Positions 4,444 to 25,334 of a stretch of 64,000 bases of DNA are shown here, piece after piece. Under the pieces are notes generated by a model. It did no database searches, was not told where the DNA came from, and saw nothing but the letters and a program-made list of their open reading frames with translations. Source of the DNA: Lachnospiraceae bacterium. Lineage in GTDB: Bacteria; Bacillota; Clostridia; Lachnospirales; Lachnospiraceae. Where the stretch lies: positions 23,069 through 87,068 of the forward strand of contig JALEPL010000033.1 of the NCBI GenBank assembly GCA_022766245.1. The letters are read 5' to 3'. The translations under genes and the position numbers were made by a program. The first letter of the stretch is position 1. Every line of letters starts with the position of its first letter.

Positions 4444-5226
4444 ATGACAAAAAAGAAGGCGACAGCCAAAGACTGGACATTTCGCATCATATTTATTGTG
4501 GCATTGATTGTATTCGTGGTGTCGGCAGCCATGCTGATTTATTACTTCATCCTGTATCATAAAGGCAGCAGTGAATATGAGAATCTGCAACAGTATGTTA
4601 CGGTAGAGCAGGAGGTTTCCACAACAGATACCGAGGAAACGCAGGAAGAACTGAATGTGGATTTTGAGGCTTTACAGGCATTGAATCCGGACTGTGTGGG
4701 GTGGATTTATTTCGAGAATCTGGATATCAGTTATCCCATTATGCAGAGTGAGGACAATGATTATTACCTGAGGCGTACCTTTGAAAAGCAGCATGTTACG
4801 GCAGGCAGCATTTTCATGGATTATCAGAATGCTTCCGATTTTTCGGATGAAAATACCTTTATCTATGGTCATAATATGAAGGATAAAACCATGTTTGGGA
4901 AATTGAACGGATATGCAGAGAAGGATTTTTATCAGAAGAATCCCAATTTTTACATTTATGCACCGGGTTATATTTATCGCTATGATGTTTTCTCCTGCTA
5001 TGTGGGAGCTGTGGCGGAGGAGGATATTTTTTCTCTATCCTTTGCCTCTGAGGAGGAGTATCAGAAGTATTTGGATGTGATTCAGGGGAAGGCAGCTTAT
5101 GATACCGGTGTGGAGGTAACAGCGGAGGATCGGATCGTAACCCTGATGACCTGCAACACAGCGGGGCAAGACTATCGGTTCTTTGTACATGGGGTGTTGG
5201 CTGAGACAACAGAGTTGAAGGAGTGA
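4444..5226 (+). CDS. srtB: Class B sortase
   Basis: A membrane-anchored transpeptidase that cleaves sorting signals and joins surface proteins to peptidoglycan. The 260-residue protein has one N-terminal membrane segment (about residues 12-36), then the sortase fold: His in IYGHNMKDKTMFGKL (~142), the nucleophile in TLMTCNTAG (Cys 237), and the catalytic Arg in YRFFVHG (~245). Spacing and the GWIYF and YPIMQSEDNDYYL motifs place it in class B. No substrate with an LPXTG- or NPQTN-like tail is seen in this window, so its client must be elsewhere. Sir2 follows after 9 bases. Confidence 0.92.
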   Translation: MTKKKATAKDWTFRIIFIVALIVFVVSAAMLIYYFILYHKGSSEYENLQQYVTVEQEVSTTDTEETQEELNVDFEALQALNPDCVGWIYFENLDISYPIMQSEDNDYYLRRTFEKQHVTAGSIFMDYQNASDFSDENTFIYGHNMKDKTMFGKLNGYAEKDFYQKNPNFYIYAPGYIYRYDVFSCYVGAVAEEDIFSLSFASEEEYQKYLDVIQGKAAYDTGVEVTAEDRIVTLMTCNTAGQDYRFFVHGVLAETTELKE

Positions 5227-5235
5227 GGACGTAAG

Positions 5236-5952
5236 ATGGATGAAATCAAACAGTTGAAACAATGGGTGGATGAGTCAGAGCGGATTGTGTTTTTCGGGGG
5301 AGCGGGGGTATCCACCGAAAGTGGAATCCCGGATTTTCGAAGTGTGGACGGATTATACAATCAGAAATATGATTATCCGCCGGAAACGATATTAAGTCAT
5401 ACTTTTTATCGGAAAAGGCCGGAGGAATTCTACAAGTTCTATCGGGATAAAATGTTATGTCTGGACGCAAAGCCCAATGTGGTTCACAAAAAACTGGCAG
5501 AGCTGGAGCAGCAGGGAAAGCTCACCTCTGTGGTGACACAGAATATTGATGGACTTCATCAGGCAGCAGGAAGTAAACGTGTCTGGGAGCTTCACGGCAG
5601 TGTGCACCGGAACTATTGTGAGGAATGTGGCAAGCTCTTTGATGCCAGATACATATTGGAAGGTACCGGTGTTCCGGTATGTGATGCCTGCGGCGGTCCG
5701 GTGAAGCCGGATGTGGTTTTATATGAGGAAGGGCTGGACAGCCATACCATGCAGTCTGCCATCTATGATATCAGTCATGCGGACATGCTAATCCTCGGTG
5801 GAACTTCTCTGGCAGTTTATCCTGCAGCGGGGCTCATTGATTACTATCGTGGAAACAGGCTGGTGCTGATCAATAAATCCACCACGCCCATGGACAGTCG
5901 GGCAGATTTGCTGATCCAGGGGAGACTGGGGGACGTGTTTGCGTGCTTATAA
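5236..5952 (+). CDS. cobB: NAD-dependent protein deacylase, Sir2 family
   Basis: A sirtuin that removes acyl groups from lysines while consuming NAD+. The 238-residue protein shows the NAD-binding GAGVSTESGIPDFRS (~residues 22-36), QNIDGLH, the catalytic His in ELHGSVH (~120), and two CxxC pairs (CEECG and CDACGG) for the structural zinc. The typical bacterial length and all key residues suggest an active enzyme. It follows the sortase by 9 bases and precedes the DUF951 gene by 14, so the three may be co-transcribed, though no functional link is evident. Confidence 0.94.
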   Translation: MDEIKQLKQWVDESERIVFFGGAGVSTESGIPDFRSVDGLYNQKYDYPPETILSHTFYRKRPEEFYKFYRDKMLCLDAKPNVVHKKLAELEQQGKLTSVVTQNIDGLHQAAGSKRVWELHGSVHRNYCEECGKLFDARYILEGTGVPVCDACGGPVKPDVVLYEEGLDSHTMQSAIYDISHADMLILGGTSLAVYPAAGLIDYYRGNRLVLINKSTTPMDSRADLLIQGRLGDVFACL

Positions 5953-5966
5953 AATAAGGAGATTCT

Positions 5967-6158
5967 ATGAAATATCTATATGAAGTGGGAGATATCGTAA
6001 CGCTAAAAAAGCCCCACCCCTGTGGCAGCAAGGAGTGGGAGATTCTGAGAGTGGGAGCAGATTTTCGTCTGAAATGCTGTGGCTGCGGACATCAGGTGAT
6101 GCTGGCTCGTACCTTGGTGGAGAAAAATACGAAAAATCTGGTAAAAAAGTCCGAATAA
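5967..6158 (+). CDS. DUF951 family small protein
   Basis: A 63-residue basic protein with the DUF951 signature: YEVGDIVTLKKPHPCGSKEWEILRVGADFRLKCCGCGHQVML. The three Cys of the PHPCG and CCGCG motifs could bind a metal. The family is widespread in Firmicutes, often near ribosomal-protein or chromosome-partition genes, and has been suggested to bind nucleic acid; its function is not established. A good AAGGAG site precedes the ATG. It lies just upstream of the rpsF promoter. Confidence 0.9.
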   Translation: MKYLYEVGDIVTLKKPHPCGSKEWEILRVGADFRLKCCGCGHQVMLARTLVEKNTKNLVKKSE

Positions 6159-6171
6159 CTTTAAAAAAGGC

Positions 6172-6200
6172 TTGCCTTCACAGTAAAATTGTGCTATCAT
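6172..6200 (+). promoter_or_regulatory. Sigma-A-type promoter for rpsF-ssb-rpsR
   Basis: TTGCCT, a 17-base spacer and TATCAT lie 75-100 bases upstream of rpsF, close to the vegetative consensus and with ideal spacing. Confidence 0.7.
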
Positions 6201-6220
6201 AAGGGCTCGTGATATGTAAA

Positions 6221-6260
6221 ATTCCTTGCTTCCTACCCGTTAGGAGGCCAGAGACCAAAA
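6221..6260 (+). promoter_or_regulatory. Candidate S6:S18-binding leader hairpin
   Basis: CTTCCTA, loop CCCGT, TAGGAGG form a compact hairpin in the 5' leader of the rpsF operon. Leaders of rpsF operons in many bacteria carry a CCG-containing hairpin mimicking the 16S site bound by the S6:S18 complex for feedback control. Position and the CCG in the loop fit, but I could not compare it with a covariance model. Confidence 0.5.
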
Positions 6261-6275
6261 GGAGGTAAATCTAGC

Positions 6276-6566
6276 ATGAACAAATATGAATTAGCACTTG
6301 TTGTGAATGCCAAGATCGAAGACGATGTCAGAACTGCTACAGTTGAGAAGGCAAAAGAGTATATCACTCGTGCAGGCGGAACTGTAACAGAGGTAGAAGA
6401 GTGGGGTAAGAAGAGATTAGCTTACGAAGTTCAGAAGATGAACGATGGCTTCTACTATTTCATCCAGTTCGATGCAGCATCGACCGTTCCTGCTGAAGTA
6501 GAGCAGAATGTTCGAATCATGGACAACGTTCTTCGGTTCTTATGCGTTAGAAAAGACGAGGCATAG
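6276..6566 (+). CDS. rpsF: 30S ribosomal protein S6
   Basis: S6 binds the central domain of 16S rRNA in the small subunit together with S18. The 96-residue protein starts MNKYELALVVNAKIEDD and contains the conserved VEEWGKKRLAYEVQKMNDGFYYFIQFDA. AGGAGGT precedes the ATG. It is first in the classical rpsF-ssb-rpsR operon, with its own promoter and a probable regulatory leader hairpin. Confidence 0.97.
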   Translation: MNKYELALVVNAKIEDDVRTATVEKAKEYITRAGGTVTEVEEWGKKRLAYEVQKMNDGFYYFIQFDAASTVPAEVEQNVRIMDNVLRFLCVRKDEA

Positions 6567-6590
6567 AATAGAGAAGAGGAGATCGAAAGT

Positions 6591-7031
6591 ATGAATAAAG
6601 TAATACTTATGGGAAGATTAACCAGAGATCCGGAAGTCAGATACTCAAGTGGAGATAATCAGATGGCAATTGCCAGATATTCACTTGCAGTAGATCGCAG
6701 AGGCAGAAGAGACGGAGACGGACAGACAGCAGATTTCATCAACTGTGTTGCATTTGGAAAGGCAGCAGAGTTTGCAGAGAAGTATTTCCACAAGGGAATC
6801 AAGATCGCTATCACCGGACGTATCCAGACCGGAAGCTATACAAACAAAGAAGGACAGAAGGTATATACTACCGATGTCGTAGTGGAAGAGCAGGAGTTTG
6901 CTGAGAGTAAAGCTGCATCTTCTGAGAATGCAGGAGGATTCACCCCTGCGGACAGACCTTCACCAAGCAGTGCCGGAGATGGATTTATGAATATTCCGGA
7001 CGGAATTGATGAGGAGTTACCATTTAAATAA
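6591..7031 (+). CDS. ssb: Single-stranded DNA-binding protein
   Basis: SSB coats single-stranded DNA during replication, repair and recombination. The 146-residue protein has the OB-fold N-terminus MNKVILMGRLTRDPEVRYS, the conserved FINCVAFGKAAEF, a flexible linker, and ends DGIDEELPFK, the acidic tip through which SSB recruits partners. It lies between rpsF and rpsR, the usual arrangement. Confidence 0.97.
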   Translation: MNKVILMGRLTRDPEVRYSSGDNQMAIARYSLAVDRRGRRDGDGQTADFINCVAFGKAAEFAEKYFHKGIKIAITGRIQTGSYTNKEGQKVYTTDVVVEEQEFAESKAASSENAGGFTPADRPSPSSAGDGFMNIPDGIDEELPFK

Positions 7032-7049
7032 CTATAGGAGGTAATAGCC

Positions 7050-7313
7050 ATGGCTTTCAATAAGACAGACAGAGATGGCGCGCCCGCAAGAAGAAGAGGC
7101 GGCATGCACAGAAGAAAGAAAGTATGTGTATTCTGTGGAAAAGACAATGTAATTGATTACAAGGATACCAACAAGTTAAAGAAGTATATCTCTGAGAGAG
7201 GAAAGATTCTTCCCAGAAGAATCACAGGAAACTGTGCAAAGCATCAGAGAGCACTTACTGTTGCAATCAAGAGAGCCCGTCATATCGCAATCATGCCTTA
7301 TGTACAGGATTAA
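7050..7313 (+). CDS. rpsR: 30S ribosomal protein S18
   Basis: S18 pairs with S6 on the 30S platform. The 87-residue protein has a basic Arg-rich N-terminus ([12 protein letters not shown]) and the conserved [30 protein letters not shown]. The CVFCGKDN segment followed by a later Cys indicates the Cys-retaining version of S18. It is last in the operon and is followed by a strong terminator. Confidence 0.97.
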
Positions 7314-7328
7314 TTATTAGAAATTTCA

Positions 7329-7364
7329 GGAGTCATTCACAGTTGTGGATGGCTCCGTTTTTTT
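7329..7364 (+). terminator. Rho-independent terminator after rpsR
   Basis: GGAGTCATTCAC and GTGGATGGCTCC pair (with G-U pairs) around a 4-base loop, followed by seven T residues after one G. Confidence 0.9.
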
Positions 7365-7389
7365 GCGTGTCCGTTGTGGTACAATATGC

Positions 7390-7472
7390 CCTGAGGCTTG
7401 TCCTCAAAGTAGCGCAAAGCGACCTTTGAGGGCTTAGCGAAGAGGCGACGGAGTCCGGGAGGATGCCTTAGG
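7390..7472. repeat. Structured intergenic element between rpsR and the kinase gene
   Basis: CCTGAGGC (7390-7397) pairs with GCCTTAGG (7465-7472), enclosing an inner hairpin of CCTCAAAG and CTTTGAGG around GCGCAAAGCG. The tract GCGACGGAGTCCGGGAGG lies in the unpaired part. There is no T run. It lies between two convergent genes and looks like a dispersed palindromic repeat, but I see only this copy. Confidence 0.5.
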
Positions 7473-7503
7473 TTCTATTGAGAGTGGAAATAAGCCAGAT
7501 GCC

Positions 7504-8571
7504 CTAAGAGAAAAATATGGTCTCTATCATAATCAGAATAAATACCAACATAAATGCAACTAGAGCATCAAAAAGTACAATACCCAGGTAGTGAGCCCCC
7601 CGTTTCTTACTCTTGCACAAAGGAAAATACCTTTGGACATTGCAGTAATTAAAACCAATGAGTATAAAGGAAAGCATCATAAGCAGGGAAATGATGCGAT
7701 TCAGCCAAAGCAGCGCACCGGTGGTGTTCTCTACTTCCATGGATAAGCAAACATAGAAAATCAGCATATATGCAGGCGCAGACACCAGCATCTTCCAAGG
7801 GGTCATGGTACGAAAACCGGGCGGAAGAAACGAAGCGTCTTTGGGCACTTTTGCAGGCCGTTGGTCTGGGTTCATGATCTGCCAGATGGCAGTTTTCAGT
7901 TCCGTCACATCCTTGTATCTGTCGGAGGGGTTCATTTGGGTACATTTCCCGATGATTTCATGATAGACTTTTGTAGGGACAGAAAGGGAGGATTGAAGTT
8001 CCCTTAATAATATACCCACAGAATAAATGTCGGTCTGAGGAGAGGATGAACCGAATCCATATTGCTCCGGAGCTGCATAACCCTGGGTTCCCAGCAGTAC
8101 TGTATCCTCTGCAGAATCGGTAGAAAAGCGCTTGGCGGCATTGAAATCCAGAAGAACCACATGGTTGTAAGAGGTGATAATAATATTGGTTGGTTTGATA
8201 TCCCTGTGAATCACTGGTGGATTCAGGCTGTGAAGCCTCTCCAGAATACAGCATAAATCGAAAATGTAATGTGCAATGGAGTCATAAGTTAAGTCAGAGG
8301 ATGCCATTTTTTCAGATAGGGAGCAACCGGAAATGTACTCTTCAATCACTGTGAGCTGACCATTTTCCTCACAATAATCGATAATTCTTGGAACACCATC
8401 CATTGGGTGGTGAAAAAGATATTCATAGATGGAAAGGTTGTAAACAGTAAGAATCTTTTTTATGTATATTTTCCCGGTTTCCTGATGCTGTACCAGATAA
8501 ACCTGATGGGGTTCATTGATTACAGCGATAGTTTTATAATAGGAAATAGCAAGCCGTCTGGTGAAATCCAA
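7504..8571 (-). CDS. Hanks-type serine/threonine protein kinase with C-terminal membrane segments
   Basis: A 355-residue protein with an N-terminal eukaryotic-like kinase domain (~1-230) and about three C-terminal hydrophobic segments (~260-355), predicting a cytoplasmic kinase tethered to the membrane. Visible motifs are the likely ATP lysine in KIYIKKIL, catalytic-loop HRDIKPTN and activation-segment GTQGYAAPEQYGFG. Two departures stand out: the glycine-rich loop is not recognisable (AVINEPHQVYLV), and the metal-binding DFG reads DFN. The catalytic Asp and Asn are intact, so activity remains plausible. It is divergent from an HTH-like gene, suggesting shared control. No PASTA domain, so it is not PrkC. 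Confidence 0.87.
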   Translation of the reverse strand: MDFTRRLAISYYKTIAVINEPHQVYLVQHQETGKIYIKKILTVYNLSIYEYLFHHPMDGVPRIIDYCEENGQLTVIEEYISGCSLSEKMASSDLTYDSIAHYIFDLCCILERLHSLNPPVIHRDIKPTNIIITSYNHVVLLDFNAAKRFSTDSAEDTVLLGTQGYAAPEQYGFGSSSPQTDIYSVGILLRELQSSLSVPTKVYHEIIGKCTQMNPSDRYKDVTELKTAIWQIMNPDQRPAKVPKDASFLPPGFRTMTPWKMLVSAPAYMLIFYVCLSMEVENTTGALLWLNRIISLLMMLSFILIGFNYCNVQRYFPLCKSKKRGAHYLGIVLFDALVAFMLVFILIMIETIFFS

Positions 8572-8614
8572 GAAATCACCCCTTTCTTATGTGAGTCGTT
8601 ATATGTACATAATC

Positions 8615-8640
8615 GTATCTGTAAAGTCCCGAACAGATAC
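8615..8640 (+). repeat. Short palindromic repeat, family A
   Basis: GTATCTGT, 10 bases, ACAGATAC: the same 8-bp inverted repeat as at 4367-4393. It lies between the divergent kinase and HTH-like genes. Next to it, GAACAGTTAC (8643-8652) runs into TATATC, a possible -10 box for the HTH-like gene. Confidence 0.65.
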
Positions 8641-8675
8641 CCGAACAGTTACAGTATATCAGATAGGAGGAGCAA

Positions 8676-9137
8676 ATGAGAGAAAAAAATACACGGGAGT
8701 TGGAAAATGTTTTGGGAAGGACGCATTTATCCCAGTTTGAAGGATATTGCAGGGAAAACAAGGACAGTATGTCGGATGGTGGAGATACATTTTCCATCTA
8801 CATCAAAAATCTATTGTGTGAAAAGGGAATCACACAGCAAATGGTTTTCCTGAAGGCGGATATCCCGGAGCGATATGGGTACAAGCTGCTATCGGGGGAG
8901 AAACACACCAGACAGAGAGACGTGATTCTGCGTATCTGCTATGCGGGAGAGCTTACTCTGGAGGAGACTCAGCGAGCCCTGAGAAAATATGAAATGCCGG
9001 AGCTGTATGCAAAGGTACCAAGGGATGCCCTGCTCATGATTATCTTTAACGAGAGGCCGGGAAGCATCATTGATGTAAATGAATTGCTGAAGGAAAAGGG
9101 GATGGAACCTCTGCGGACCAGTGGATTGCAGGATTAA
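8676..9137 (+). CDS. Putative HTH (XRE-like) protein divergent from the kinase
   Basis: A 153-residue soluble protein. Residues ~45-75 (NLLCEKGITQQMVFLKADIPERYGYKLLSGEKH) read like a helix-turn-helix of the XRE/lambda-repressor type, with the later RQRDVILRICYAGELTLEETQRALRKY as supporting helices. The C-terminal half has no recognisable domain. GATAGGAGG precedes the ATG with good spacing. Its divergent pairing with a Ser/Thr kinase suggests it may be regulator or substrate of that kinase; this is inference from context. DNA binding is not certain. Confidence 0.65.
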   Translation: MREKNTRELENVLGRTHLSQFEGYCRENKDSMSDGGDTFSIYIKNLLCEKGITQQMVFLKADIPERYGYKLLSGEKHTRQRDVILRICYAGELTLEETQRALRKYEMPELYAKVPRDALLMIIFNERPGSIIDVNELLKEKGMEPLRTSGLQD

Positions 9138-9170
9138 GGTGAGATTTGGGTTAAGAGGGCGTTTGTATAG

Positions 9171-9620
9171 ATGAAGAAAAACAGAGACAGAATTTTTCTA
9201 TGGATGAACATTTTACTTCCGGTGATGGTGGGCGGTATCACTTACTATCTTATTTCGCCGGAGGTATTTTTTGCGCGGCAACTGGATGCATTATTGGGAA
9301 GTGGCATTCATATTGAGAATGTGGGATCTCAGGGGATTATTTTTCGATGGCTCCGAAATTATGCATTGGATATGATGTGGGGCTATGCATTGTTTTTTAC
9401 CTTGCATCTTATGGTGGCGGATGATACGGCGGAGTGGTGGAAAACTTTTGGGATGGCAGCCGTTTTTTCAGCAGGAATGGAACTTCTGCAAATTATGCCC
9501 GGTGTGGCAGGAACGTTTGATGTGTGGGACATTGTGGTGGAGGTACTGGCGGAGGGGATTGCCGCGGTGGTGTTGCTGTGTTATAAAAACTTCCCACCAC
9601 TGCGGGGGCAACGGTGGTAG
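9171..9620 (+). CDS. VanZ-like family membrane protein
   Basis: A 149-residue polytopic membrane protein with about four hydrophobic segments. The pattern LRNYALDMMWGYALFFTLHL, then FSAGMELLQIMPGVAGTFDVWDIVVEVLAEG matches VanZ-like proteins (conserved Asp, the E-LLQ motif, and GTFD-x-x-D). VanZ itself gives low-level teicoplanin resistance, but most homologues have unknown cell-envelope roles, and none is assigned here. The ribosome site is poor, so the exact start is uncertain. Confidence 0.72.
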   Translation: MKKNRDRIFLWMNILLPVMVGGITYYLISPEVFFARQLDALLGSGIHIENVGSQGIIFRWLRNYALDMMWGYALFFTLHLMVADDTAEWWKTFGMAAVFSAGMELLQIMPGVAGTFDVWDIVVEVLAEGIAAVVLLCYKNFPPLRGQRW

Positions 9621-17392: not shown

Positions 17393-17580
17393 TGTTTTGT
17401 CCTCCTTTGAATAATCATTGAATAGCTCTTAAGCTACAGTAAATTCTAATACAAAAGATTTGTTATTACAAGAGTAAATTATGAGGTATTTGTGAAAAAT
17501 AATTGCATAATCAGGTATTTGGCATTATAATGTCTAGGATTAGCACAAATGTAGTTCAAAGCATAAGGAGGTACCATATT

Positions 17581-17790
17581 ATGGCACAGGTTACAGGAAA
17601 AACAATGATCGGAGAATTACTCATGATCGATGAAAATATTGCACCGATTTTACTGGAGATCGGAATGCATTGTCTGGGATGTCCTTCCTCACAGATGGAG
17701 ACCATCGAGGAAGCCGCTATGGTTCATGGCATCGAGCCTCAGGAGCTGGTGGATCGCATCAATGATTTCCTGGCAAAGGACGGAAAATAG
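17581..17790 (+). CDS. DUF1858 family protein
   Basis: A 69-residue protein with the DUF1858 pattern: TMIGELLMIDENIAPILLEIGMHCLGCPSSQMETIEEAAMVHGIEPQELVDRINDFL. The CxxC in HCLGCP is conserved in this family, which resembles the N-terminal domain of ScdA/RIC-type iron-sulfur repair proteins and may bind metal or a cluster. The true start is the ATG at 17581 after AAGGAGG, not the track start. A strong terminator follows, so it is monocistronic. Precise role unknown. Confidence 0.88.
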   Translation: MAQVTGKTMIGELLMIDENIAPILLEIGMHCLGCPSSQMETIEEAAMVHGIEPQELVDRINDFLAKDGK

Positions 17791-17948: not shown

Positions 17949-17975
17949 TAAGAAAATGGGAGAAATGGCCGACAT
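17949..17975 (+). promoter_or_regulatory. Sigma-D (sigma-28) type flagellar promoter
   Basis: TAAG, a 15-base spacer and GCCGACAT resemble the motility consensus TAAA-N15-GCCGATAA. It lies about 65 bases upstream of the FliK-like gene that heads the flagellar block, consistent with late-flagellar control. Confidence 0.65.
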
Positions 17976-18040
17976 AGTAAATATAATGATGAAAGAGCAT
18001 AACTATGAAGGTACGGAATAGTTATGAAAGAGGTTTTTAC

Positions 18041-21000
18041 ATGAAGATTGAATCAGCCAGTATTTTAGACCCTTCGAAGCAGGCGGCGCCGATGCTTCGA
18101 CCGGAAGAACAACAAAATAGTGTGCGGACAGGGTCTGTGTTTCAGGTGGAGCAGAGTCGAAAGGCGCAGAATCTTTTGGACAATCCTACCTATGGAAAGC
18201 CTCAGAAGGAAGCGACCACAATAGAGGAGATTCAGCAGCAGGCATCGGAAATGGATGCGGTTCAGCAGAAGAACGAGATGCTGTTTGCATCCCAGACTAC
18301 CTCTGTCAGGGACGCAAAGGAACTGGAGGAGAATGGCCACTCTCTGTTGGATGATAAGATTGAGACCGTGGTGACAGAGACAGATAAGATTAAGATGATG
18401 CTGGCGAAGGCGGGCTGTGATATTAGCTGCTTTGGGGATGATCTGACAGAGGAGCAGCTAAGCGAGATGGCAGGAAGTGCGGTCTTAGCCTACCAGCTTG
18501 CGCAGGTACTGACTCAGGCAGATCTGCCGGCTTCAGAAGAAAATGTGTCTGATATGATGGATACCATTTCTGTGCTGAGCGAGGTTTCTGAGCTTTCCGA
18601 TGGCGCCATTCGCTATTTGCTGCAGAATGAGCTGGAGGCTACGCCGGAAAATCTGTTTAAGGCTCAGTTCTCCGGCAGTATGGCAAAGACTGTGGCAGAA
18701 GCGGAAGGGCAGATCGACTATACAGCGCTGCAGCCAGCAATTGAGCGTACTTTGGAGGAGATATCACTGGATATAAACAGTGAGAATGTGGAGGACGCAC
18801 AGTGGCTCATTGCCAATGAGCTTCCTCTTACTGCAGAGAATCTGACCCGGAAGCAGGCACTAGAAAATCTGGAGATGCCCATGGATCCCAAAAAACTGGT
18901 GCAGTCGATGACAGAGGGCATCGCTGCAGGAGTGCGTCCGAAGAATGTGATTTTGACCGAGGTGGGATCGGGACAGGAAGATGCGGCGGAAGAAATCTAT
19001 GAGACGATACAGAATGCGACAGATGAAGATGTCCGATATGTCTTGGATTCGGGAAAAGAACTTACGGTAGAAAATCTGAAATGGGCGAAAGAGGTGAATA
19101 AATCCTATGCACAGAACCCGAATCAGAAGAGTTATTCCAATGATACAGACAATGAGGACGGAAACAGGGACCATGCGTACCGTATGGTAAGAGCCATGAG
19201 ACAGCTGGAAGAGGTGCGTCTTGTGATGACTACGGAGGCAAATCTTGCATTGCTGAAAAAAGGGATATCCATCGATACCATGGACCTAGAGCAGCTGGTG
19301 GAAGAATTGAAGCAACAGGAGAGTGAACTGCAGATTCGTGGAAGCGATTCTCAAGAGCCTGAGCTGATACAGCAGAAACAGGCTCAGTATCTGATGCAGG
19401 AAGTGGAACAGATGAAAACCCTTCCGGCTTATGCCATTGGAAGTATGCCTGCCGATGAGCTGACCCTAAATGGATTAAAGGAGCAGGGCAGCAGGATACA
19501 GATGCAGATGGAGCAGGCCGGAGAGCGCTACGAAACCATGCAGACAAGACCGCGTCAGGATTTGGGTGACAATATTCAGAAGGCATTTCGAAATGTAGAT
19601 GATATTTTAAAGGATCTGAAACTGGATCCGACCAGGGTCAATCAGCGTGCGGTGCGGATTTTGGCGTATAATCACATGGAGATTACACCGGAGAGCATAC
19701 AGCAGATGAAGGCAGCGGACGAGATGGTTCAGCGCAGTTTTTCAAATCTGAAGCCTGCAGTGGTTGAGAGCATGATTAAGAGGGAGATTAATCCGCTGGA
19801 TATGAGTTTAAACGAGCTGAATGCAGTGGCGGAGGAAATACAGACGGAGCAGGGCATCAAAGAGGAAGAGGCGTTCAGCAAATATCTCTATAAACTGGAG
19901 CAGAATCAGCAGATCAGTGAAGAGCAGCGCAGTGCGTATATTGGAATTTATCGTCTCATTCGGCAGGTGGAAGCTTCAGATGGGGCGGTCATCGGCTCAC
20001 TGTTGCAGCAAGGCGGGGAGATGACCCTTCGGAATCTTTTGACCCAGGTTCGGACGTCAAAACATAAGGCCATGGATTACCGGGTGGATGATGAGTTTGG
20101 TGGTGTCACAGCTAAGGAGAATGGCACAGTGTCCATCACGGATCAGATTGAAGCGGCATATCAGCAGAATCTTTTGAAGGACATTCAGCAGAATATAACT
20201 CCGGAGCGGCTACGTATGCTGGGAAATGAAGAACAATGGATGGAATTGACGCCGGAGGAGATGGCAAACCAATTGAAGGAAATGGAGGAACCTTTAGAGG
20301 GGGAATATCAGTATCAGAGCCGCCAGCTGGAGTATCTGGCGCAGGCTGCGTCAGCCCCGGAGGAGGTCTATGCCATGTTGGATCACTATGACCTGCCGAT
20401 AACGGTAAACAATGTGCTGGCGGCCATGCAACAGTATTCTCAGAGAAACCGTCTGTTTCAGCAGATTTTTGGCAGTGAATCGAAAGCAGAGCTTTCACAG
20501 GAGCTTGAGGAGATTCAGGAAAAGCTGCTACGAGATTTTGGGGAAGCAGTAAAGACGCCCAAGGAGATGGCAGAGGCTCAGGAACGGTTGGCAGATACCG
20601 CAGAAAAAGTCATGAAGGACATGATGGTGGAGAAAGAGGATGTGACCAGTGTCGATATACGGGACATGAAAGTGGCCATGTCCCAGATTGCCCTGATGGG
20701 CGAGCAGGCGAAGGAGGAACAGTATGCAGTTCCTGTTTTGGTGCAGGGGGAAATGTGCAATGTATCCTTAAAGATTGTCCGGGGAGAGGACAAAAAAGGG
20801 CTGGTGGATATTTTGTTTGACACGGATCGTCTGGGCAAAGTGGCCGCTACGCTGCGAGCCACTAATAAGGGAGTATCTGCATATATTGCCACGGAAAAGG
20901 GGGAGACCGGGGAGCTTTTTGCCGGACAGGAAGCTTTTTTGAAAGAGCAGTTGGGCATGGAAGAAGGACAGGAGCTTCAGATGAGCTTTGCTGTCAGTGA

Positions 21001-21166
21001 AAATCTGGACATAAATGAGTTCGGAAAAGAGCATCAGACGATGTTTCGATATGGTGAGACACCGGAAGAACCGGTGCAGACGAAAACCCTGTACCGCATG
21101 GCAGAAAGTTTCCTGAACGTGGTTAAGTCCATAGAAAACGGAACCGATATACAAGGTAGTGAATAG
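18041..21166 (+). CDS. Large FliK-like flagellar-locus protein with many internal repeats
   Basis: A 1041-residue, acidic, Gln/Glu-rich soluble protein resembling the DUF6240 type found beside flagellin genes in Lachnospiraceae (from memory). Roughly eleven times it repeats a helical motif of the form L-x4-L-x-h-T-x-E-N-h: LQNELEATPENLF, IANELPLTAENL, LDSGKELTVENL, YNHMEITPESI, LQQGGEMTLRNL, YDLPITVNNV. The C-terminal ~150 residues (VPVLVQGEMCNVSLKIVRGEDKKG to MSFAVSE) resemble the beta-rich C-terminal domain of hook-length protein FliK. The ATG at 18041 has GAGGT; one at 18005 is also possible. Followed by flagellin and FliS, preceded by a sigma-D-like promoter. Function inferred from location. 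Confidence 0.7.
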   Translation: MKIESASILDPSKQAAPMLRPEEQQNSVRTGSVFQVEQSRKAQNLLDNPTYGKPQKEATTIEEIQQQASEMDAVQQKNEMLFASQTTSVRDAKELEENGHSLLDDKIETVVTETDKIKMMLAKAGCDISCFGDDLTEEQLSEMAGSAVLAYQLAQVLTQADLPASEENVSDMMDTISVLSEVSELSDGAIRYLLQNELEATPENLFKAQFSGSMAKTVAEAEGQIDYTALQPAIERTLEEISLDINSENVEDAQWLIANELPLTAENLTRKQALENLEMPMDPKKLVQSMTEGIAAGVRPKNVILTEVGSGQEDAAEEIYETIQNATDEDVRYVLDSGKELTVENLKWAKEVNKSYAQNPNQKSYSNDTDNEDGNRDHAYRMVRAMRQLEEVRLVMTTEANLALLKKGISIDTMDLEQLVEELKQQESELQIRGSDSQEPELIQQKQAQYLMQEVEQMKTLPAYAIGSMPADELTLNGLKEQGSRIQMQMEQAGERYETMQTRPRQDLGDNIQKAFRNVDDILKDLKLDPTRVNQRAVRILAYNHMEITPESIQQMKAADEMVQRSFSNLKPAVVESMIKREINPLDMSLNELNAVAEEIQTEQGIKEEEAFSKYLYKLEQNQQISEEQRSAYIGIYRLIRQVEASDGAVIGSLLQQGGEMTLRNLLTQVRTSKHKAMDYRVDDEFGGVTAKENGTVSITDQIEAAYQQNLLKDIQQNITPERLRMLGNEEQWMELTPEEMANQLKEMEEPLEGEYQYQSRQLEYLAQAASAPEEVYAMLDHYDLPITVNNVLAAMQQYSQRNRLFQQIFGSESKAELSQELEEIQEKLLRDFGEAVKTPKEMAEAQERLADTAEKVMKDMMVEKEDVTSVDIRDMKVAMSQIALMGEQAKEEQYAVPVLVQGEMCNVSLKIVRGEDKKGLVDILFDTDRLGKVAATLRATNKGVSAYIATEKGETGELFAGQEAFLKEQLGMEEGQELQMSFAVSENLDINEFGKEHQTMFRYGETPEEPVQTKTLYRMAESFLNVVKSIENGTDIQGSE

Positions 21167-21232
21167 AAAATTGACAGGGATGGTCAATCGGTCGCAGGGA
21201 AGCGTGCCAAGAGAAAAGAGAAGGTGGAACGA

Positions 21233-22615
21233 ATGAAGATAAACCATAATATGTCTGCAGTTGTGACCAACAAACAGCTGCTTCGCACAGAGGATGCGCT
21301 GAGCATTGCCATGGAACGGCTTTCCTCCGGACTCAGCATCAATCATTCCAAGGATAATCCTGCGGGAATGGCCATCAGCAATAAAATGAATCTCCAGATC
21401 GATGGACTGGATCAGGCTAGCCGGAATGCTTCCGACGGCACATCTGTTTTACAGACGGCAGATGGAGCTTTAAGTGAGATAACCTCTCTGATACAGAGAA
21501 TGCGGGAACTTTCCGTACAGGCAGCCAATGAAACCAATACGCAGGAAGATTTACATGCCATTCAGTTAGAGATTGATTCCCTCAGTGAAGAGGTGGATCG
21601 TGTCAGCAGAGACACAGAATTTAATAGTAAGACATTGCTGGATGGAACTGTGCAGAGGAGAGTATATGCGGAGAATGTAAGCCGGGTGGCTGTTTCCGAT
21701 GAAGTGGCAGCGGGAGCCTATAAGGTGACGATAGACAGGGCTGCGACCCAGGCCGTATCAGAAGCGGATAATGCCGTATTTGCCAATATGTCGTCAGCAG
21801 TGGGGGTGTCCGGCACCATAAGTATCAATGGAAGTTCTACACAGATTTTGGCAACGGATACGTATGCCGAAGCATTTGCAAAGATTCGCGATGCGGCAGA
21901 AATCGGTGAGACAGAGGCAGAAATAACAGCAGATGGAAAGCTGAGCCTTTCCTCTACCGCCTATGGAAGTGAAGGAAAGGTAGCAATCAGTATCAGTGAG
22001 GCAACATTGGCGGGGGCGCTGGGATATGGCTCTACGGATCCGGCGACTGCCTACGGAATGGATGCAAAGGTTTCCCTTACCAGTGGATTCACAGCGACAG
22101 CTACTGTGGAGCCGGATGGAAATAAGGTGACGGTGACAGATAAAAATGGTTTCAGCATGTCATTTCTGGCGGATCGTAATCTGCCAAATGGTACAGACAT
22201 TGTACTGGATGTGACAGATATTGGCACCATGAATATACAGGTGGGCTCCAATGAGAATCAGATTATTGCCGTGGATATCCCGGCAATAACCAGAGAGACA
22301 TTATATTTGGATGAAGTGAACGTAACTACAGTGACGGGCGCTTCCCGTGCTATCAGTCAGTTGGATGATGCCCTTGCCCGGGTATCCTCCGTGCGCTCGG
22401 CCATTGGTGCATACCAGAATCGTCTGGATTATGCGGTTACCAGTCTGGATGAAACCAGTGAAAATATGACTGCTGCCCTTTCCCGTATTCAGGACGTGGA
22501 CATGGCATTGGAAATGACTGAGTATACGAAGCAAAACGTACTGCAGCAATCAGCGATTTCTGTACTGAGTCAGGCAAATGACCAGCCGCAGCAGGTATTG
22601 CAGCTTCTGCAGTAG
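21233..22615 (+). CDS. Flagellin
   Basis: A filament subunit exported by the flagellar type III apparatus. The 460-residue protein has the conserved N-terminal coil (MKINHNMSAVVTNKQLLRTEDALSIAMERLSSGLSINHSKDNPAGMAISNKM) and C-terminal coil (RSAIGAYQNRLDYAVTSLDETSENMTAALSRIQDVDMALEMTEYTKQNVLQQSA). The variable middle (~150-350) is Ala/Ser/Thr-rich beta sequence forming the surface domain. The ATG at 21233 has AAGGTGG; the upstream GTG is not needed. Followed 8 bases later by its likely chaperone FliS. It differs from textbook flagellins in starting MKINHN and ending QLLQ, so it may be one of several paralogues. Confidence 0.95.
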   Translation: MKINHNMSAVVTNKQLLRTEDALSIAMERLSSGLSINHSKDNPAGMAISNKMNLQIDGLDQASRNASDGTSVLQTADGALSEITSLIQRMRELSVQAANETNTQEDLHAIQLEIDSLSEEVDRVSRDTEFNSKTLLDGTVQRRVYAENVSRVAVSDEVAAGAYKVTIDRAATQAVSEADNAVFANMSSAVGVSGTISINGSSTQILATDTYAEAFAKIRDAAEIGETEAEITADGKLSLSSTAYGSEGKVAISISEATLAGALGYGSTDPATAYGMDAKVSLTSGFTATATVEPDGNKVTVTDKNGFSMSFLADRNLPNGTDIVLDVTDIGTMNIQVGSNENQIIAVDIPAITRETLYLDEVNVTTVTGASRAISQLDDALARVSSVRSAIGAYQNRLDYAVTSLDETSENMTAALSRIQDVDMALEMTEYTKQNVLQQSAISVLSQANDQPQQVLQLLQ

Positions 22616-22623
22616 GAGGGGCT

Positions 22624-23100
22624 ATGGACAAAGAGAAGAAACAGGAATTTACCAGACGAATTACTCAAAGTAACCGGGGACAACTGGTGGCAATCTGTTA
22701 TGAAATAGGGCTGACTTATCTGGGAGAAGCAATGTGTGCCGGGAATGCGATGGATTGGGAGGAATTTCGTGCAGCCCTCCGGCAGACGGACCAGGTGCTG
22801 GTTCATCTGCAGGAACGGTTGAATTTTCAGTATGATTTGTCCCGGAATCTATATCAGCTGTATGATTTTAGCCGCAGGCAGCTTATGCAGGCCATGTACC
22901 AGAGAAGTGTGGTTCCCGTGCAGCAGGTAGAACAGATTCTAAAAGAGCTGCATGAAGCATTTCAGGCAGTGGCTGCACAGGATGAATCAGCTCCGCTGAT
23001 GCAGAACGCACAGCAGGTGTATGCCGGAATGACCTATGGGAAAGAACAATTAAATGAAAGTTTTCAGGGCTTAGATCATTCCAGAGGATTCTTCGCATAA
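22624..23100 (+). CDS. fliS: FliS-like flagellin export chaperone
   Basis: A 158-residue helical protein directly after flagellin. The N-terminal EFTRRITQSNRGQLVAICYEIGLTYLGEA aligns with the first helices of FliS (the pattern of a flexible N-terminus, then SxxxLVxxxYExxxxxL). The rest is amphipathic helix. FliS binds the C-terminal disordered tail of flagellin and keeps it unpolymerised until export. Similarity to canonical FliS is modest, but the position makes it the best explanation. The C-terminus (GLDHSRGFFA) is longer than usual. Confidence 0.75.
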   Translation: MDKEKKQEFTRRITQSNRGQLVAICYEIGLTYLGEAMCAGNAMDWEEFRAALRQTDQVLVHLQERLNFQYDLSRNLYQLYDFSRRQLMQAMYQRSVVPVQQVEQILKELHEAFQAVAAQDESAPLMQNAQQVYAGMTYGKEQLNESFQGLDHSRGFFA

Positions 23101-23750: not shown

Positions 23751-25115
23751 TTATCTTTCATTTATGGGTTTATAGGACCGATGCTCGCCTATGTTGCGGT
23801 AAGCAGGACGCATGATTTTTCCGTTCTGGGTCAGTTCCTCTAAACGATGTGCACTCCAGCCTGCAATTCTTGCAATGGCAAAAATCGGTGTATACAGTTC
23901 CAATGGAAGATCCAGCATATGATACACAAAACCACTGAAGAAGTCTACGTTTGGACTTACACCTTTGTAGATTTTACGCTCTTTCGCAATAATCTGTGGG
24001 GCGAGACGTTCCACCAGTGAATATAGAGCAAATTCTTTTTCATATCCCTTTTCTACGGAAAGCTTCTCTACAAAGCCTCTGAATATCCTTGCACGGGGAT
24101 CGGACAGGGAATATACTGCATGACCCATTCCATAGATTAAACCTGCGTGGTCAAAAGCTTCCTTGTACAATAGTGCAGTCAGATACCTGCCTACTTCTTC
24201 TTCGTCAGTCCAGTCTTTTACCTGAACTTTCATATCCTCAAACATCTGAACAACCTTGATATTAGCACCGCCGTGTTTAGGACCCTTCAAAGAACCAAGG
24301 GAAGCCGCGATTACAGAATAAGTATCTGTTCCGGAGGAGGATACCAGGTGTGTGGTAAAGGTGGAGTTATTTCCACCGCCATGCTCCATGTGCAGAATCA
24401 GTGCAATGTCCAAAAGCTTTGCTTCCAAAGGAGTGTATTTACTGTCGGGACGCAGAATGTGCAGAATTGTCTCTGCGGTGGACAACTGCGGCTGGGGGGT
24501 ATGGATGAAGAGGCTGGCACCATCGTGGTAGTGGCGGTAAGCCTGATACCCATATACGGATAACAGTGGAAACAGACTGATCAGCTGCATACACTGACGC
24601 AGTACATTCGGGAGAGAAATGTCATTGGCCCGCTCATCGTACGCATACAGAGTCAGCACGCTTCTGGCCAATGTATTCATCATATCCTTGCTGGGAGCTT
24701 TCATAATAATATCCCGGACAAATCCAGTGGGAAGGGAGCGGTATTCGGAAAGAATACTGCAAAAATTATGCAGCTGTTCCTTGGTCGGTAGTTCACCGAA
24801 GAGGAGCAGATAGGTGCATTCTTCGAATCCAAAGTGACTGTCAGGGGAAATACCTTTTACTAAGTCCTCTACATTGTAGCCGCGATAAAAGAGCTGTCCA
24901 TCCGCTGGAACAGAAACACCATCCACGATTTTTGTGGAACTAACTTCAGATATATTGGTGAGTCCCACCAAAACGCCTTTACCATTTAAATCTCTCAGTC
25001 CGCGTTTAACATCATATTCAGAGTATAACTCAGATGGAATTTGATTTGCTTCAGAACATAATTTGGATAATGACATGATATCGGGGGTTAGCTCGTAAAA
25101 ACTGTTTGTTGTCAT
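23751..25115 (-). CDS. gltA: Citrate synthase
   Basis: Condenses oxaloacetate and acetyl-CoA to citrate. The 454-residue protein carries the citrate-synthase signatures: FYRGYNVEDL, the His of HMEHGGGNNSTFT, GLIYGMGHAVYSLSDPRA with the second catalytic His, and the Asp of VDFFSGFVYHML. It is the longer Lachnospiraceae-type protein with an N-terminal extension. The ATG at 25115 follows AGGAGG by 7 bases; three upstream Met codons in the track lack this. Monocistronic. In such anaerobes it usually supplies 2-oxoglutarate for glutamate synthesis rather than running a full cycle. Confidence 0.94.
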   Translation of the reverse strand: MTTNSFYELTPDIMSLSKLCSEANQIPSELYSEYDVKRGLRDLNGKGVLVGLTNISEVSSTKIVDGVSVPADGQLFYRGYNVEDLVKGISPDSHFGFEECTYLLLFGELPTKEQLHNFCSILSEYRSLPTGFVRDIIMKAPSKDMMNTLARSVLTLYAYDERANDISLPNVLRQCMQLISLFPLLSVYGYQAYRHYHDGASLFIHTPQPQLSTAETILHILRPDSKYTPLEAKLLDIALILHMEHGGGNNSTFTTHLVSSSGTDTYSVIAASLGSLKGPKHGGANIKVVQMFEDMKVQVKDWTDEEEVGRYLTALLYKEAFDHAGLIYGMGHAVYSLSDPRARIFRGFVEKLSVEKGYEKEFALYSLVERLAPQIIAKERKIYKGVSPNVDFFSGFVYHMLDLPLELYTPIFAIARIAGWSAHRLEELTQNGKIMRPAYRNIGEHRSYKPINER

Positions 25116-25334
25116 TGCAACGCCTCCTTTACTCATTTTGTCGCCTCTTTGAGACATCAACTAAAGAATATCCTATCATATTTTATCGAATAAAAACAAG
25201 GGGAATTGTGGCACTTTTTGAAAAGTTAATATTACATTTAGAAAAAATTCATTATTTAAATGGATTTTTTATTGAGAATCATTTATCATACTTTCAGGAC
25301 ACATTTTAATTCTAAATTGGGAGGAATTTCTTTT

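Follow-up and report, generated by a model that had tools for sequence, protein, structure and literature searches.

Within the window, the 64,000-nucleotide stretch of DNA analysed here from a Lachnospiraceae gut bacterium, an open reading frame on the forward strand (18041–21166, +) encodes a giant, FliK-like repeat protein of 1,041 residues. It belongs to the Pfam family DUF6240 (PF19753; E = 4e-113, matched over two stretches) and also matches PF02120 (Flg_hook), below the cut-off (E = 5e-5). The frame, which the initial annotation had located correctly, contains in-frame ATGs at 18005 and 18041 and ends at 21166; the second ATG is more likely the start, because relatives begin with M-K/R-I-E. 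According to a profile search, this is the only DUF6240 gene in the source genome. A sigma-D (sigma-28)-like promoter, TAAG-N15-GCCGACAT, was read directly from the sequence 92 bp upstream of the start (17949–17975, +). A single site of equal score occurred in 97 of 2,000 random 300-bp stretches, so that the site alone is not rare by chance; the support for a promoter lies in its conserved position, as most relatives carry TTAAG...CCGACAT or a similar site 50–110 bp upstream of the DUF6240 start. Downstream follow a partner flagellin (21233–22615, +; Flagellin_N/C; a 463-residue frame from a GTG at 21224, with an ATG at 21233) and a divergent flagellin chaperone of 158 residues, termed FliS2 (22624–23100, +; FliS, E = 1.8e-17), which is the second FliS of the genome. 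The flagellin, FliS and sigma-D-like promoter reported beside the giant protein in the initial annotation are all present as described. The surrounding genes comprise a citrate synthase gene convergent to the flagellin operon (23751–25160, –) and, upstream of the DUF6240 gene, a gene for a DUF1858 / hybrid-cluster-protein-associated redox disulfide protein (17503–17790); a similar-looking small protein is encoded near a flagellin gene in a Roseburia-type locus (L091).

The initial annotation had counted about eleven copies of a motif in the giant protein. The repeat itself was upheld by shuffling, profile–profile comparison and a pooled HMM, and the number was not: the sequence supports about eight irregularly spaced copies of h-x-h-T-x-E-N-h, and eleven equal repeats could be reached only by admitting degenerate sites. 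The strict pattern h-x-h-[TSN]-x-[ENR]-[NST]-h has six matches in the window protein, whereas 2,000 shuffled versions gave 0.04 on average and never more than 2. For the profile self-comparison that had been suggested as a check, eight 51-residue blocks were cut from a 68-sequence alignment and compared using hhalign. Among the 25 non-overlapping motif–motif pairs, the probability exceeded 50 in 14 and 80 in 10, and the motif blocks were separated from all controls (0/91 motif-versus-other pairs, 0/66 other-versus-other pairs and 0/25 column-permuted pairs). The pooled repeat HMM found 8 units in the window protein and a mean of 7.2 across 68 homologues; it found about none in shuffled, reversed, FliK or flagellin sequence sets. 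In the AlphaFold model, each motif sits in a predicted helical hairpin, where it caps the second helix; T-x-E-N starts that helix. All eight hairpins, encoded on the forward strand, were assigned from this model and the pooled HMM. Four of them were recovered when sites were left out one at a time (i-E <0.1), namely LPASEENV at residue 162 (18479–18580), LEATPENL at 198 (18599–18670), LPLTAENL at 261 (18779–18868) and KELTVENL at 339 (19022–19114). LPITVNNV at 785 (20360–20440) was marginal, and LDINSENV at 243 (18719–18814), MEITPESI at 546 (19634–19747) and GEMTLRNL at 659 (19985–20065) were linked to the other repeats by profile–profile evidence only. As only four sites were clearly recovered, some of the units are distant. 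The unit at site 162 is present in 59 and that at site 339 in 63 of the 68 homologues.

On a larger scale, the whole DUF6240 domain occurs twice. The window protein is a full member of this family without assigned function, scoring 377.7 bits against a gathering cut-off of 26.6 bits, with a first, weaker copy (18479–19078, +; 74.5 bits, profile positions 9–275) and a second, strong copy (19205–20041, +; 327 bits, profile positions 1–276). The AlphaFold model (mean pLDDT 74) consists of a disordered N-terminal segment of 63 residues (18041–18229, +; pLDDT <50 for residues 1–63), the helical hairpins, long helices at residues 820–891 and a beta-rich domain at residues 894–985 (20720–20995, +). 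The extended helical repeat suggested in the initial annotation thus reappears as a predicted helical-hairpin solenoid. The N-terminal segment may possibly hold a type III export signal, its predicted disorder being at most compatible with such export of the protein. Profile and predicted fold together support the C-terminal domain as a substrate-specificity switch domain of the FliK/SctP type, in line with the earlier view of it as FliK-like. Its Flg_hook match reaches 23.6 bits, below the Pfam cut-off of 29.8, and the cut-off is passed in the DUF6240 relatives L065 (37 bits), G154 (49.5 bits) and G016 (40.1 bits). In Foldseek searches of the PDB, the switch domain of PscP (5cuk) ranked first for both the whole model (prob 0.99, E = 0.33) and the C-terminal part folded alone (prob 1.00, with a modest E of 6e-3). 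This best fold match comes from an SctP-type needle-length ruler, an injectisome rather than a flagellar protein, and shares 15% identity. A sequence search of solved structures with the DUF6240 protein gave nothing useful.

FliS2 carries a C-terminal tail, D-x-S-x-P-L-M...Q-x-V-x-A-G-x-T-Y-G-K...S-R-G-F (22975–23097, +), which is nearly invariant in an alignment of 46 sequences, conserved also in the order-wide members and absent from the main FliS of the source genome. From its sequence, the tail looks like a putative binding site for a dedicated partner. The flagellins linked to FliS2 form a group of their own, as 13 of them from 13 genomes lie on one side of a 100/100 branch and the remaining 17 flagellins in the set on the other. 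The order DUF6240–flagellin–FliS2 is kept, with differing flanking genes, in most sampled families of the Lachnospirales. The complete trio was found in 42 of 68 named loci, a count that takes in only named loci with 3 kb downstream, and the median gaps are 85 and 16 bp. In the Roseburia/Agathobacter group, the DUF6240 gene lies apart from the flagellin gene; thus, tight co-expression is not universal.

Relatives were found in genome contigs by an alignment-based query, whereas a single-sequence query found none. DUF6240 is present in 159 of 294 Lachnospirales genomes, 157 of which also have flagellin and two of which do not, and it is missing from 31 of 188 flagellated relatives. Together with the gene neighbours, this occurrence bears out the flagellar link drawn in the initial annotation. 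At least two FliS genes are present in 146 of the 159 DUF6240-positive genomes, compared with 0 of 30 flagellated DUF6240-negative genomes; 12 of the positive genomes have one FliS, and one has none. The genomes share ancestry and the negative ones come mostly from few lineages, so that Fisher p-values for these counts overstate independence. One genome, G167, has kept flagellin, FliK and the second FliK-like gene described below, with both DUF6240 and the second FliS missing; several other flagellated species of its genus have DUF6240, and the two genes were apparently lost jointly. Members of the family have reading frames of 666–1,642 residues (median about 1,044). In locus L065 (genome G039), for instance, the gene (5171–9547, –) encodes 1,459 residues with five DUF6240 stretches and a Flg_hook match above the cut-off. 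Weak DUF6240 matches also occur elsewhere in the class Clostridia, in proteins of 460–660 and, in a few cases, 800–1,240 residues, which suggests that the hairpin repeat predates the Lachnospirales.

The DUF6240 protein is not the main FliK of the cell, since a canonical fliK, encoding 528 residues, sits elsewhere in the source genome, between fliJ and flgD (genes named by reading their sequences). Among the findings that would speak against it, the initial annotation had named a canonical fliK elsewhere combined with a giant protein unrelated to flagella; the first half is indeed what we see, the second clearly is not. What the two proteins share is a flagellar context and a C-terminal switch domain, recognised from its fold and, below the cut-off in the window protein, from its profile. 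They differ in that the DUF6240 protein is about twice as long (about 1,041 against about 500 residues), has helical-hairpin repeats that the pooled HMM does not detect in FliK, and is encoded beside flagellin and FliS2 instead of next to flgD among the hook and basal-body genes. The source genome has another FliK-like gene, encoding 602 residues, beside flhX, which encodes an FlhB-C homologue; this corresponds to the position of YlqG/YlqH in B. subtilis. As judged from the profiles, the DUF6240 proteins most closely resemble this FlhX-adjacent kind, enlarged by extra hairpins: hhalign gave a probability of 97.7% over the C-terminal 176 columns, comprising the switch domain and the preceding helices, compared with 34.5% for canonical FliK. 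Distant DUF6240 members also match its N-terminal domain and first repeats (90%). The FlhX-adjacent proteins have about 600 residues and mostly 0–1 detectable repeat, whereas the window protein has about eight repeats and lacks both the N-terminal beta domain, which is found in distant DUF6240 members, and an adjoining flhX. The simplest history would be a FliK-like paralogue that grew by hairpin duplication. Two candidate associations were discarded. FlhX is present in all 49 genomes tested, with or without DUF6240, and is therefore not a specific partner; nor is DUF6240 coupled to the second FliK-like gene, as the first 49 genomes had made it seem, because that gene persists in G167, where DUF6240 is missing, and because a diverged gene occupies the corresponding position ahead of flhX in DUF6240-negative genomes. 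The FliK-like arrangement is a different one in the flagellated Lachnospirales loci L179–L183 and L185, which lack DUF6240: flhX adjoins a cheA-like gene and is preceded by a gene for a protein of about 470–500 residues that matches Flg_hook weakly or not at all.

With moderate confidence, we propose that the DUF6240 protein acts late, as an export switch or gatekeeper that serves the second flagellin together with its chaperone. The proposal draws on the switch fold, operon order, co-occurrence, joint gain and loss (as in G167) and flagellin clade, all of which, like the family assignment and the repeats, are supported by our computations, and further on the FliS2 tail and the likeness to the FlhX-adjacent protein. 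From these we infer docking on FlhB or FlhX, binding of FliS2, secretion of the DUF6240 protein and an order of filament assembly. As an enlarged FliK relative serving the second flagellin, the protein would be synthesized late from the sigma-D-like promoter, in one operon with the dedicated flagellin and FliS2. Its switch domain would dock on the export gate, where its target would be either FlhB, in the cleaved C-terminal part, or FlhX, a free-standing copy of FlhB-C. A precedent is given by FliK, the C domain of which binds FlhB-C to switch export (PMC6972891; PMC13344023). Once docked, the protein would favour or time the export of the FliS2–flagellin complex, and the solenoid may hold this complex at the gate or set the duration. 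Canonical FliK would already have brought about the ordinary hook-to-filament switch, and the second flagellin would join the filament in its turn, for instance as a segment of its own. More tentatively, the Lachnospirales as an order may possess a second, late specificity switch, in which, once the hook is complete, a giant FliK-type protein together with a dedicated chaperone and flagellin initiates or times a separate segment of the filament. Shewanella putrefaciens likewise has two flagellins per cell, and its FlaA/FlaB filament is spatially ordered, an order attributed to separate promoters (PMC6299084) and not to a FliK-like protein; in the present case, ordered segments are only possible.

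A rather unlikely alternative to such a gate switch is that the protein works in the cytoplasm as a co-chaperone or storage scaffold: its solenoid would bind FliS2 and flagellin prior to export, leaving the switch-like domain as a leftover docking module. It would account for DUF6240 and FliS2 being present together and lost together, for a conserved tail that resembles a binding site and for the well-folded helical solenoid predicted by AlphaFold. However, a recognisable switch fold has been kept across the order, with distant members matching Flg_hook above the cut-off, which favours a function at the gate. Less likely than this scaffold, and improbable in our view, is a second ruler for hook or rod length, in which the solenoid would reach through the channel and the export of hook protein would be stopped by the C-terminal domain, beside or in place of canonical FliK. 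The FliK/SctP-type switch domain and a long repeat region of varying length, as reflected in the range of reading frames, are what one would expect of a ruler; but a canonical FliK of ordinary size is at hand, the DUF6240 gene lies beside flagellin and FliS with a late-type promoter although hook control is early, and 31 of the 188 flagellated relatives do without it. The canonical fliK and these relatives also led us to reject the hook-length ruler put forward in the initial annotation. That annotation had further considered an adhesive solenoid, which on or near the filament, outside the cell, would suit a long repeat protein encoded beside flagellin. We regard this as very implausible: by reading, the window protein has neither a signal peptide nor a cell-wall anchor (no hydrophobic N-terminal stretch, no LPxTG, and an end of ...TDIQGSE), its C terminus adopts a predicted type III secretion switch fold, its partners are an export chaperone and flagellin, and its promoter is sigma-D-like.

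Accounts of flagellar assembly usually name a single specificity switch, FliK. Here, FliK, flagellin and FliS are proteins of known kinds; a set that combines them across the order and includes a giant FliK relative is undescribed as far as we have checked, and none of the papers searched names DUF6240. The order-wide set of DUF6240, flagellin and FliS2 looks like a second control step in building the flagellum. If true, this would give the Pfam family DUF6240 a testable role. A large group of gut bacteria, Roseburia included, would possess a further controlled step of flagellar assembly, one that would bear on which flagellin gut commensals display. Roseburia hominis, for instance, has four flagellin genes, and different immune effects were seen for two of the flagellins tested (PMC5622956).
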